DNA of 64,000 nucleotides from Bugula neritina (Eukaryota > Bryozoa > Gymnolaemata > Cheilostomatida > Bugulidae), in the NCBI GenBank assembly GCA_964035545.1, contig OZ037767.1, positions 12,806,301 through 12,870,300 of the forward strand, written 5' to 3'. Positions 40,704 through 49,700 of this stretch are shown piece after piece (the stretch's first letter is position 1; each line of letters starts with the position of its first letter). The notes under the pieces were generated by a model that was not told the DNA's origin, searched no databases, and saw only the letters and a program-made list of their open reading frames with translations. A program made the translations under genes and the position numbers.

Positions 40704-43700
40704 CTAATTTCTAGCAACATAAAAGTCAGTTGAAGCTCTCATTCTTCTATTGTTGAAAGGATCCATATACATGGCCATGTCTTCTATTTCTTGTAAATTC
40801 TTAGAGTGTTTACCTCTGGAGTTAGCTCTCTTGAAGCAGCAGGCACACACTGTGACAATGATCACTGTGACTGCGGAAAGAGAGATGGTGCCTATCACTA
40901 TGTATATCCAGTGGGCACAGAAACCTGAAACAAATAACATTAAGTTTATTAAAAACTATATAAGTAATATAGCTGACAGTAGCATATACAGCTTGTGTTA
41001 ATATTGCTTATTGTTACATTTCCTAAAGCATCGTTCATTATTGTTTTGTAACTAATATTATACAAAATTTTGTATCCAAAACACACAAATCTGTATGAGA
41101 ACCAACTTATAAATAAAAAGATTTTCATTAAAAGCTTCAAAACTGTTCATTTCCATTTTTTCGAAGTCAAAGCATAAAATATGATTGAAATAAAACATAT
41201 AATATTATGGAAACATAAAAATAACATTTTGCATGGGCTCACAAAAAGCAGATATTTATCTTTGCAAGACTTGCGTATATATATTATCATATGCGCACTA
41301 CAACAATGAGTAAGGTACAATCTCTAAGACAAAAGTGTTTGAATACCTTCGCAAACACATTTTGGTTCATCTTCAGATACTTCCTTACAGACATGGGTTG
41401 TCGGACAATCGAAATTGTCACAGGATCGAGCACAAGTTCTACCTCTCAAATCCGAGAACTCTGAAAGATCTGCAGAGTATTGTAGTAAACTTGTGGGTTC
41501 TGAATGCAACTAGTGCCTACATGCTCTAGAAAGAATAAGCCAAGTATTTGAGTACAAATGAGGATAACCTTTATTGTATCAGATACAGCTTATGTGGTCC
41601 TACTACCAGCGAGCTCCAGTAGTAGTCTGAATCTACACTGGAAACTCGCCTGCTTTTATACACAAGAATTCACATCTAGAATGTTCCAACAGACAAAAGA
41701 AAGTTAAGCTTGACAGTAACAAAAGAAAAATAGACAAAGGAGAATGAATAATTCAATAGGCCAAGAATTTAGCTATAATAACAACCTATTGAAGGCATTC
41801 ATAAAAGCTACACAAATTTCCAGTATCAGTATTAATGCAAAACGATGAAATAGCAAAAAAGGGAAAATAACTCTGGAAATGCGTATTTAATGAAAATTAC
41901 ATTATACTGAAAGCTTAATCGCAATAATAAGACATTAGAAAGCTAGTGCAACTTAGCTACAATTACAGCATTCAAAATATACGCAACAGTAATTATAATA
42001 CTGACACACGCAGTTACTTGAGAACAGTAGAGGATGAGAATCTATCACATTCTCCCCCCATCGAAAAGCATCCCCTTTTCGATAACAAAACAATGATTCC
42101 ACACAAAAAAATGAAACACAAACGTAGAAAAATATGCGGTTAACAGGAAAGTATTATGATTAATCACACGTAACCCGAGAACATTTACAGTTCAGTTGGC
42201 TATTGCCAGCGGCCCCTGGTTGTCCGGTTTTATCATTAGAGGTGGTGCACCAGGCTTTCTATCTCTTCTGTACTTGGATCGAGGATATGGGACCAGGCCT
42301 CGATTGCGCTATCCAGGACGCACTCTCGGTAAGGAAGTGCCATACTCTGCCCGTGACGGGGCAATTGTGGGTGGGTTGGCTGAGTCTGTTCTTCTATCTG
42401 GTTGCCTGGTGCTCCAGATATCCAATACTGGCGGGCGACCAGGGCCCGAGGCATTGCCAGTATTGGAGAGTCCTCTTCGTCTCTGCCTGCGAGGTGGTCG
42501 CCGTATAGAGTGCCCTGCTCCTCCCCAGCTGTGAGCTGGAGCTCAACCGGTTCGGGGTCAGGGCCACTAAGGCTGGCGGAACACACCTCGGAAGAGGGGG
42601 TGTCGTACTGCTGGCTGCGGGGAGCCGAAACAGGAGCTGGTGGGGGAGGGGAGTCGGATCGACTGGCCTCCTCGGTATCCTTACGCTCCTCTGTTTGGGT
42701 ATCCGGCGAGGTAATTCCCATAGCTGATGCTAGGGTCTGAATAACAGTGTTTAAATTATACTTAGGGGTATCAGGATTAGAATTTAACTTGAGCTGTAAC
42801 TCACGTGCTAGCTGTGTGAAATCTTCTTCTTGGTGGAATTCTCCGGGGTGATGGAGGGAATTTCCAGCCAAGATGGGGTGGTCGTCCGTACTGGGTGGGT
42901 TGTCTTCATGAGGGGGCCACTCCAGGTGCCCTACAGCATAGTCTGCCAGATACCTGGGGGGTCTTCTTGACCGCTGGCTCCTCTCAATTGGAACAGGCAC
43001 CTGTGGTGTTGGTGGCTCCTGGGCTACCCTAGTAGGGGGGTCCCCGCCTTCACCCAACACGGGGGTGGGGGTGTCCTCCCCCAGGGAGGGTGGTGGTCCT
43101 AGGGCTTGCCGCTGTTCCTGTTCCCGCTCTTCTCTCTGCTGTCGCTCCAGCTGCTCTATCAAGGCGGCCTGCTCCTGGTCCGACTCTCTGGGAACCACAA
43201 TTTCCACCTCTCGGGGCTGGGTGGCCCGTCCTCGACGGTTGGGCTGGCGGTGGGGCTCCAGGAGGGGTGGAGCCTCACCCACTGCGTCTGGGCTGGCATG
43301 GTAAGGCTTCAGGCGCTGCTCGCTCTGGACCGAGACCTGTCCAGAGCGCTCCACACGGTATGTGTGGTTGGGCAGCACCTCCACTACACAGTAGGGACCG
43401 ACGAACTTGGGCTGAAGTTTAGCCGACTGTCCGCGTCGCCTACGGTAGCTCACCATCCAGACCCAGTCTCCCACTTGGTACAACGGGGGCTCTTCCGAGT
43501 CCTCTGTGCGGGTCTGCCACTGCTGGGTACGCAGTGCATCATGAGCTTTGCCCATGATGTCTATCAGACCCTCTACATATTCGTGTACCGGTGACTCGGG
43601 GGCAGGAACATGGTATGTCAGGTGTTCCGGAACCCGCGTCTCTCGGCCTAGCATCAGGAAGTTTGGGGTCTCCTGCGTGGCGGAGTGTGGTGTGCTGCGG

Positions 43701-46700: not shown

Positions 46701-49700
46701 GATCCGTCCGCCAACGTACCATGCGCACCTTCATACGGCTCGAGGCTCGCCCGCTCTCGTGCACCAAGAGTGTCAAAGAGACGCCTACTCAGCAGGTTGG
46801 TAGTGCACCCAGTATCCAGTAGGAATGTGGCAGCTTTACCCGAAATCTTTCCGGGCAGGAAGTAGCTGCTTCCATACGGCTGGGTGCTCCTGGAGCGGTC
46901 AGTCTCTGGGGGAGACACAACTTGGGTCCGCACAGCGGGCCTCCTCTTCGTCTTAGAGACAACGGGGGTTTTCTGAGGTCGGGAGGATAGCTTGGGGTAC
47001 TCTTGCGAGTAAGCTGAATCCTCCTCCACAACCTCCTCGGGCAACCCCGCGAACCGGTTCTGGAGTGGCCAGGCCGGAGGATCGGGTAGACCTTGCGGTC
47101 TCCGAGATCTCCGAGGTGCCTGCCATCCTGCTTCTTCTAGCTGCATCCGGGTCTCGAGTGACACGGCCGGAGGATCGGGTAGACCTTGCGGTCTCCGAGG
47201 TCTCCGTGGCCTCTGCCACTCGGTATTGGCAGACCTTGTGGAGGTCTCTTCTTCTCCTCTTCGAGTCCTAACCCGGATGGGATTGGCGTGAGGCCCACGG
47301 TTGGCGGAAGTTACCGTGAGCCTTGGGTGTTTAAAGGCCCTTGGCCTCTAGGGCAGTGCCTCCTCACGTGCCCTTGCGCCCCGCACCCCCAACAGGTTAG
47401 CAGAGATGGGCGGACAGGGTTGTCCCGTGAACGGGGAGCCCACCTATCCGCCTGTTCGTTCTGCAACTTCGTCACCGTAGCCTGCAGGCCTTTCATCATG
47501 TCCATTAACATGGTGAGCTGCGTCTGCTCGGGTGATTTAGTTGCAGCTGCTGCTACCTGTGGAGTTGGAAGTGGGGTGGTCTCATGCTCCTCGACCACTT
47601 GGCGGGCTGTATAGCTCGGTCGCCTAGGCTCTTCCACCTGGAAGTAAGCCTTCCCCATTTCCAGCGCTTCCTCTATACTGTTGACCTTGGCGGCCAGCCA
47701 GTATCGCTGCAGGTCCGGGTGATTCACGCTCCGGAAGAACGCGTTATAAACGAGGCGCTTCCGGTCGTCGCCAGTGGCTTGACCGAAAGCAGCCTGAGCC
47801 AGGCGCTCTACCTCGTTAGCGTGATCTTCCAGAGGAGTCTTCCGGTCTCTCCTCATTATCTGCAAACGATCAGCTGCTTCTTCGGCTGTTAGGCCGAACC
47901 GGGCTCTGAGAGCCCGCATGATGTGCTCTTCATCAGGCCCAAGAGCGAAGCTCTTGGCCCGGCCTGTCAGACAGGCCCGGAGTTGGAGGATGCGCACCCG
48001 TACTGGCCATTCAGCGATGGTGGCCACATCCTGGAACTCCCTGATGAATTGCTCTACGTCTTCTTCTCCTCCGAAATTCGGGGGCTGGAGGCGATACCTG
48101 TCACCAGGTGATGCCTGTCCTTGACCCCGCAATCCCTGGAGGGCTGTGACCAGCGCCTCAACAGTGAGGGCTGGTGGTGTTGCTGCCTCAGGGGCTGAGT
48201 CCCCTGGGGCCATTGCGCGCCGCTCGGCAACTAGTTATTCGAAAATCCCACCGCTGCCACCAATGTAGTAAACTTGTGGGTTCTGAATGCAACTAGTGCC
48301 TACATGCTCTAGAAAGAATAAGCCAAGTATTTGAGTACAAATGAGGATAACCTTTATTGTATCAGATACAGCTTATGTGGTCCTACTACCAGCGAGCTCC
48401 AGTAGTAGTCTGAATCTACACTGGAAACTCGCCTGCTTTTATACACAAGAATTCACATCTAGAATGTTCCAACAGACAAAAGAAAGTTAAGCTTGACAGT
48501 AACAAAAGAAAAATAGACAAAGGAGAATGAATAATTCAATAGGCCAAGAATTTAGCTATAATAACAACCTATTGAAGGCATTCATAAAAGCTACACAAAT
48601 TTCCAGTATCAGTATTAATGCAAAACGATGAAATAGCAAAAAAGGGAAAATAACTCTGGAAATGCGTATTTAATGAAAATTACATTATACTGAAAGCTTA
48701 ATCGCAATAATAAGACATTAGAAAGCTAGTGCAACTTAGCTACAATTACAGCATTCAAAATATACGCAACAGTAATTATAATACTGACACACGCAGTTAC
48801 TTGAGAACAGTAGAGGATGAGAATCTATCACAGTATTCTGTAACGGCAAAAGTATGTGATAAAAAGTTCTAAAAAGTTATGTATAGCAAGTATTAATTTA
48901 GGTGACTCGTTATACATTGCAATATAGCTAAAATTAATAGACTCACAAATACATACATTAGCTCAAATGAATATTTCTGTATTTACAAAGTTTGAAGGTA
49001 TTTCTTGTTATAGTATTTTAAAAATAGTGATATTCAATAATAAAAGCCTTTTCTACAAGGTTTTATGAGTATTTTCTTGCACACACATACAAACACACAC
49101 ACCCACACACAAACGCATGCGCAAACAAACAAAAACTCACCTTCATTACAAATACAAGTGTAGAACCCATCTGTGTTGGTACATTCAGCATTAGGGCTAC
49201 AGTCATTCAGGTCTGGGTCGTCACATTGATTCACATCTAACACTACTGGTGATGCGGTCACAACTACAAATAAACAAATGCAACATACAGTGGTATACTA
49301 TAATTGATCAGAATGCTTATATTAGTCATCAAGTGAGATAAAGTGTTAAGATAATTACCTATATGCTAAAAGTTTCAGGGAGCAGCTTCGTCCGGGGTTA
49401 GAGCCCTGGCTTAATAAAGATGAAGTCATGGGTTCGAACCCCAGTAAAGGCCATTGGTGATGCTAGGAAGAATATCCAGTTATAGTGTTTTGTTGCCATT
49501 TATGAATCAATCCTTAGTTACTTTAGAAAAGAAACCTTTTTAATCAGAGGTTCTCACAAAGATAGTACCCATATACCTGTGTAAGTTCTATGCTAAAAAC
49601 AAACTCAAAAATAAACAAAAGGAATCGCGTTTTATAACGATGAAAATAACACATGTGCTTATATTTTTTGACAACATTCAACAGAGAGCAATTACAAAAC

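Follow-up and report, generated by a model that had tools for sequence, protein, structure and literature searches.

A Ty3/gypsy retrotransposon with identical long terminal repeats in a coding exon of a mucin-stalked metalloprotease relative in Bugula neritina

We analysed a window of 64,000 nucleotides (nt) from the genome of Bugula neritina (C3:12,806,301-12,870,300), and positions below are those of the window unless a contig is named. The mitochondrial COX1 of this genome, translated with code 5, agrees with that of Bugula neritina at all 480 residues compared. A second COX1, perhaps a nuclear copy, lies on the chromosome-scale contig C6 (C6:11,174,072), and the small contigs C17, C65 and C196 have differing COX1 matches that are perhaps of foreign origin. 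A Ty3/gypsy element, whose family is young and has many copies, sits in exon 9 of a gene with a mucin-like stalk that is related to M12B/ADAMTS-like metalloproteases and is here called gene A. The sense strand of gene A is the minus strand, and nine exons were placed on it between 54,079 and 40,704, with AG and GT at the placed splice sites; they are numbered 2-10, following a preliminary description of this DNA. The element occupies 41,481-48,832 (7,352 base pairs, bp), also on the minus strand, and thus has the same orientation as its host gene. The features, in the direction of transcription of gene A, are:

52,674-54,079, minus strand: exon 2, cysteine-rich region, Thr/Pro mucin-like repeat and first half of SEA-like module 1
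52,304-52,505, minus strand: exon 3, second half of SEA-like module 1
51,382-51,504, minus strand: exon 4, EGF-like domain (EGF_3, 28.4 bits, just below the cut-off of 28.5)
50,738-50,872, minus strand: exon 5, 135-nt paralogous exon
50,211-50,374, minus strand: exon 6, first half of SEA-like module 2
49,826-50,027, minus strand: exon 7, second half of SEA-like module 2 (assigned to SEA from its pattern, with no match in the library)
49,141-49,263, minus strand: exon 8, EGF domain (EGF_3, E value 4.6e-7, 30.4 bits, cut-off 28.5)
48,833-48,837, minus strand: exon 9, first 5 nt, AATAC
48,833-48,836, no strand assigned: target site duplication GTAT, first copy (also bases 2-5 of exon 9)
48,264-48,832, minus strand: 5' long terminal repeat (LTR), 569 bp, with TATAAA at LTR nt 390 and AATAAA at nt 475 (48,358-48,353)
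48,224-48,263, minus strand: candidate primer-binding-site region adjoining the 5' LTR (TTGGTGGCAGCGGTGGGA...)
47,311-48,213, minus strand: gag open frame, 300 residues, with a CCHC-like motif (Pfam zf-CCHC, E value 0.29, below cut-off)
42,236-47,347, minus strand: pol open frame (open reading frame 42,236-47,164; open from 47,347, overlapping the end of gag)
42,050-42,079, minus strand: purine-rich tract adjoining the 3' LTR (GATGGGGGGAGAA)
41,481-42,049, minus strand: 3' LTR, 569 bp, same sequence as the 5' LTR
41,477-41,480, no strand assigned: target site duplication GTAT, second copy
41,347-41,476, minus strand: exon 9, other 130 nt, with in-frame AGs ending at exon positions 12 (41,470) and 21
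40,704-40,924, minus strand: exon 10, hydrophobic membrane-like segment, tail and stop (read by eye; 68% match in paralogue C, described below)

The element splits exon 9 (135 nt) after its fifth base. The natural acceptor CAG (48,840-48,838) is followed by the exon start AATAC (48,837-48,833), and the exon resumes as TCTGCAG at 41,476, the two parts of 5 and 130 nt adding up to 135 nt in phase 1-1 before the donor GTATTC. A 4-bp target site duplication, GTAT, lies at 41,477-41,480 and 48,833-48,836. The two LTRs (41,481-42,049 and 48,264-48,832) are identical at 569 of 569 positions, have TG...CA ends, and show no match past these ends. The preliminary description had noted a very young Ty3/gypsy element, inserted into a coding exon at a distance of 5 nt from the splice acceptor and flanked by ATAC (GTAT on the plus strand), with LTRs that look identical. 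The position and flanks agree with this to the base, the computed LTR identity is complete, and ‘very young’ can be put as zero differences in 569 bp. The restored exon indeed has the length and phase of the paralogous exon at 50,738-50,872.

An assembly error that misplaced the element at this locus is conceivable in a family with near-identical copies, which could mislead assemblers. We nevertheless consider it exceedingly improbable, as the duplication and the element ends are perfect, and the description of the sequencing gives HiFi data of ~132-fold coverage with a quality value (QV) of 53.7 and 27.37 Gb in 2.82 million reads, corresponding to ~9.7 kb per read, longer than the element (PMC11480708). 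The same source lists a deposited second haplotype (GCA_964035465.1). An empty allele was not found in the assembly (215.8 Mb in 295 contigs): each flank matched at 100% only at the insertion locus, among the best 40 of 2,119 candidates for one flank and in 5 of 5 for the other.

The pol open reading frame (1,642 residues) is in a different frame from gag. Four pieces of it, searched separately, matched the Pfam families Asp_protease_2 (E value 5e-8), RVT_1 (6.1e-37), RT_RNaseH (1.2e-35) and rve (8.3e-16) in the order protease, reverse transcriptase, RNase H and integrase, which is the Ty3/gypsy order; paired LTRs with TG...CA ends and a short target duplication are likewise those of a Ty3/gypsy element. 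The candidate primer-binding site presumably resembles the 3' end of a leucine transfer RNA (tRNA). Neither tRNA genes nor Rfam families were found in the window.

The absence of differences between the LTRs corresponds to a 95% upper bound of ~0.005 per site (3/569), which is not a date without a bryozoan rate. Among the best 40 of 417 candidates in a genome-wide search with the LTR, spacing distinguished 14 pairs (the window copy included) and 12 singles. The full copies compared are the best LTR matches and hence a biased sample; within it, 11 of the 13 other full copies have no LTR-LTR differences and the remaining two have 2 and 3, while a 4-bp duplication flanks 12 of the 13 (all but L027; flanks compared by eye). 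Seven of the 12 singles were fetched, and five of these are solo LTRs with a duplication, the other two continuing into internal sequence. The closest copy among the matches listed, L022, has 6 differences in 6,214 internal positions, and the other 12 copies differ by 0.6-1.9%. The family is young and many-copied in Bugula neritina, and its near-identical copies suggest that it has been transposing. Because ATAC/GTAT also flanks L023, L031 and L041, there is nothing unusual about the exon site as a target. The solo LTR L036 (C9:10,295,762) is 100% identical to the window copy and has its own GTTC duplication, which indicates that solo LTRs, too, have formed recently. A further family member, an LTR with 95% identity, is located at C3:12,794,577, 11.2 kb to the left of the window, and frames at 2,671-3,003 and near 10,301 resemble, by eye, the integrase region of a related, older gypsy element.

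Without the element, gene A is a single open frame of 903 codons with no stops. It encodes a cysteine-rich region and a Thr/Pro repeat of ~320 residues (both in exon 2), two successive sets of SEA-like module, EGF domain and 135-nt cysteine-rich exon, and finally a membrane-like segment and a tail. Transmembrane mucins of the MUC3/12/17 kind combine a Ser/Thr/Pro repeat, EGF domains near the membrane, a SEA domain, and a transmembrane segment with a tail. Gene A has the long Ser/Thr/Pro repeat and the EGF domains near the membrane, and in exon 10 a hydrophobic run followed by basic residues was read from the sequence by eye. The SEA-like assignment is one of pattern and exon split only: the three SEA-like pieces had no Pfam match, and a four-row profile found no match in the PDB. 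Exon 9 had been described as the last EGF-like exon, for which the match is weak (FOLN, E value 0.019, 15.6 bits, cut-off 21.1); it is the preceding exon 8 that lies above the EGF_3 cut-off.

Two paralogues on the same contig, B (C3:12.904-12.921 Mb) and C (C3:10.90-10.925 Mb), and a decayed neighbouring copy, P, show exon 9 in its unbroken form of 135 nt. When seven exons of gene A (202, 123, 135, 164, 202, 123 and 135 nt) were projected onto B and C, AG before and GT after the exon were present in 14 of 14 cases, and both paralogues are open through the 361 codons of these exons. The 14 placements and the 135-nt fit in B, C and P argue that the exon 9 structure is not due to chance. Projection of exon 10 from A gave a 68% match in C and found none in B; in P, exon 9 contains a stop and exon 10 is broken.

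Gene A also shows constraint. Between A and B, nonsynonymous (dN) and synonymous (dS) divergence in exon 9 are 0.117 and 0.741, respectively, and the branch dN/dS over six exons is 0.26 for A, 0.30 for B and 0.32 for C, so that the A branch is as constrained as the other two. These ratios leave out one exon that is 98% identical between A and B. In a crude simulation, a fully neutral A branch would be expected to acquire ~14 stops in the 583 codons outside the repeat, compared with 0 observed in 903. The omitted exon, SEA-like exon 49,826-50,027, stands out from the other six matched exons (81-87% identical between A and B), which looks like recent gene conversion.

The preliminary description had called gene A a mucin. 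The mucin-like stalk is indeed present, but the name is incomplete, as the family consists of M12B/ADAMTS-like metalloproteases with a stalk and a membrane segment; we rejected a ‘mucin only’ identity because paralogues B and C carry reprolysin/ADAMTS-type protease exons. The last 281 residues of gene A had no homologue among 408 candidates of 0.55-1.75 times the query length. A longer query of 480 residues matched two among 8,000 candidates scored: B. neritina EB796_005837 (P0121), 48% identical over 45% of the query, and a sea urchin fibropellin-like protein (only 10% coverage). In P0121, modules like those of gene A are preceded by reprolysin and ADAMTS cysteine-rich domains, and its SEA-like region, like those above, had no Pfam match. 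P0121, B and C thus resemble A in the cysteine-rich, SEA-like, EGF and 135-nt-exon modules, and differ from it in having reprolysin-type exons or domains. Two sibling M12B metalloprotease-like genes lie in the window on the plus strand, at 20,857-24,363 and ~25,636-37,300, the second with a Thr/Pro repeat, and prodomain/protease-like fragments of the family are found on the minus strand at 15,443-15,243 and 7,872-7,765.

For gene A itself, protease exons were sought upstream of exon 2 with 30 queries (P0121 and 29 translated pieces). In 54,080-64,000 nothing on the gene A strand was better than an E value of 0.08, the single match below 0.001 being 20 residues on the plus strand (7e-4), whereas the same queries gave 68 matches in the control region 20,000-36,400, an easy control because some queries originate there. 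The next 3.5 kb beyond the window held nothing better than 0.011, and none of the matches listed in a genome-wide search (best 53 of 180 candidates) fell between A and C3:12,900,000. The similarity between A and C stops ~165 bp before exon 2. Gene A thus resembles a duplicate that lacks the protease part. The 4.3 kb separating exon 2 from the end of the next gene yielded neither a convincing first exon nor a convincing signal peptide. The signal-peptide scan returned two signal-like starts, which were discarded as unusable since, on our reading of the output, each would make a stop at the junction. The next gene is IRF2BP-like (58,404 to ~60,500, minus strand; C3HC4 zinc finger, Pfam E value 1.1e-14); its extent was read by eye from open frames, and its 3' end lies 4.3 kb upstream of gene A.

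These observations raise the question of whether gene A had already fallen silent, as a fragment truncated at its 5' end, before the element arrived, in which case the insertion would be neutral. The failure to find protease exons such as B and C possess, the end of A-C similarity so close to exon 2, the absence of protease-exon matches up to C3:12,900,000 among the best 53 of 180 candidates, the junction stops that both signal-like starts would create and the decay of neighbouring copy P would all fit. However, the nine placed exons are all open with AG/GT, and the A branch is constrained like B and C, although this constraint leaves room for a silence of 1-2% divergence (chance of no stop 0.45 and 0.19). 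On balance, we hold prior silence to be somewhat unlikely.

If the gene is expressed, the insertion would be expected to truncate its product. We propose that exon 8 is spliced to the intact natural acceptor and that AATAC is then read into the LTR, where the stop TAA at LTR nt 34-36 would end translation after 11 LTR-encoded residues (EY + 11). Polyadenylation would follow the AATAAA at LTR nt 475, ~440 nt past the stop and still in the 5' LTR. The predicted product retains the stalk, the SEA-like modules and the EGF domains. Exon 9, the membrane segment and the tail would be missing from it, which would turn a surface protein into a soluble one. A stop in the last exon is not expected to elicit exon-junction-dependent decay, and the stop proposed here falls in the new last exon. 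The read-through peptide and its stop are present in the sequence, as are the LTR signals TATAAA and AATAAA. In mouse mutations caused by endogenous retroviruses (ERVs), transcripts commonly terminate within LTRs (PMC1794541).

We give this truncated, unanchored protein about an even chance, and several points weigh against it. The locus may not be expressed, given that the search for a first exon and a signal peptide gave no convincing candidate; the natural acceptor scores lower than the in-frame AG at exon position 12 of the occupied allele (5.63 and 8.11, on a score built from 25 sites); and poly(A) signals in 5' LTRs can be weakly used.

The second of these points leads to a different outcome, in which an extended intron (49,140-41,470) takes out the whole element and exon 8 is joined at the AG 12 nt into exon 9. 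The protein would stay anchored and lose four residues (EYSADLS to DLS), the 12-nt loss being in frame, as is the AG at 21. Cryptic splicing is known to remove inserted transposons, such as Tc1 in C. elegans and Ds in maize. The end of the LTR provides the upstream acceptor context (TTTACTACAATACTCTGCAG), with which the AG at 12 scores 8.11 in the occupied allele compared with 5.58 in the empty one and 5.29 for the AG at 21. The score is crude, however, being derived from 25 sites of one gene family that are mostly paralogous, and many AGs score equally: in a 26-row version (one site twice) applied to 7,802 AGs of the window, the AG at 12 reaches the 97.9th percentile. Moreover, the transcript would have to cross two poly(A) signals in sense orientation, and the natural acceptor persists upstream. 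We therefore regard this splicing route as unlikely, and it is distinctly doubtful that the LTR end, by strengthening the downstream acceptor, makes the retrotransposon act at once as an extra intron that leaves the gene nearly intact.

The preliminary description had foreseen loss of the exon 9-10 parts unless exon 9 is skipped. The frame-keeping skip stands, and the in-frame AG at 12 adds a third route. Skipping would join exon 8 to exon 10 in frame, exon 9 being 135 nt long with phase 1 on both sides, and would give an anchored protein lacking the 45-residue cysteine-rich module. It requires an 8.2-kb intron over two sense poly(A) signals, and no sequence feature favours it over the acceptor at 12; we consider it highly unlikely. 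Truncation in the 5' LTR is favoured, conditional on gene expression, because both the splicing at 12 and the skipping must cross the two signals.

A close precedent is Cer1, a Gypsy/Ty3 element whose two LTRs are identical. It interrupts plg-1, a mucin-like gene, in C. elegans N2, and its presence varies among wild strains (PMC3315495). Element class, LTR identity and a mucin-like host are shared, whereas phylum, element and gene differ: the Bugula host is a metalloprotease relative for which the searches gave no protease exons, and its element inserted 5 nt away from an acceptor. Sense ERV/ETn insertions of mouse and human, as described in PMC1794541, similarly place a gene-oriented LTR with a poly(A) signal in a transcript that often ends there, but these elements are intronic, unlike the exonic Bugula element with its retained natural acceptor. 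By comparison with these systems, the Bugula insertion can be regarded as a clear-cut new case of an established class of mutation. Literature searches found no paper in the library searched that joins Bryozoa with gypsy LTR retrotransposons and, on retrotransposons and mucins, no Bugula among the 8 papers listed of 550. With Tc1 and maize Ds, the locus shares in-frame cryptic sites beside the insertion that could remove the element; the element class differs from Ty3/gypsy.

The locus provides a young insertion, resolved to the base, in the bryozoan phylum, and it indicates that Bugula neritina has a young Ty3/gypsy family and a cluster of membrane-type metalloproteases with mucin stalks. The unbroken exon in three paralogues makes the three splice outcomes testable by RNA. 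If the LTR end does act as part of an extra intron, one allele could yield both an anchored surface protein, with the element spliced out, and a soluble, LTR-terminated form.

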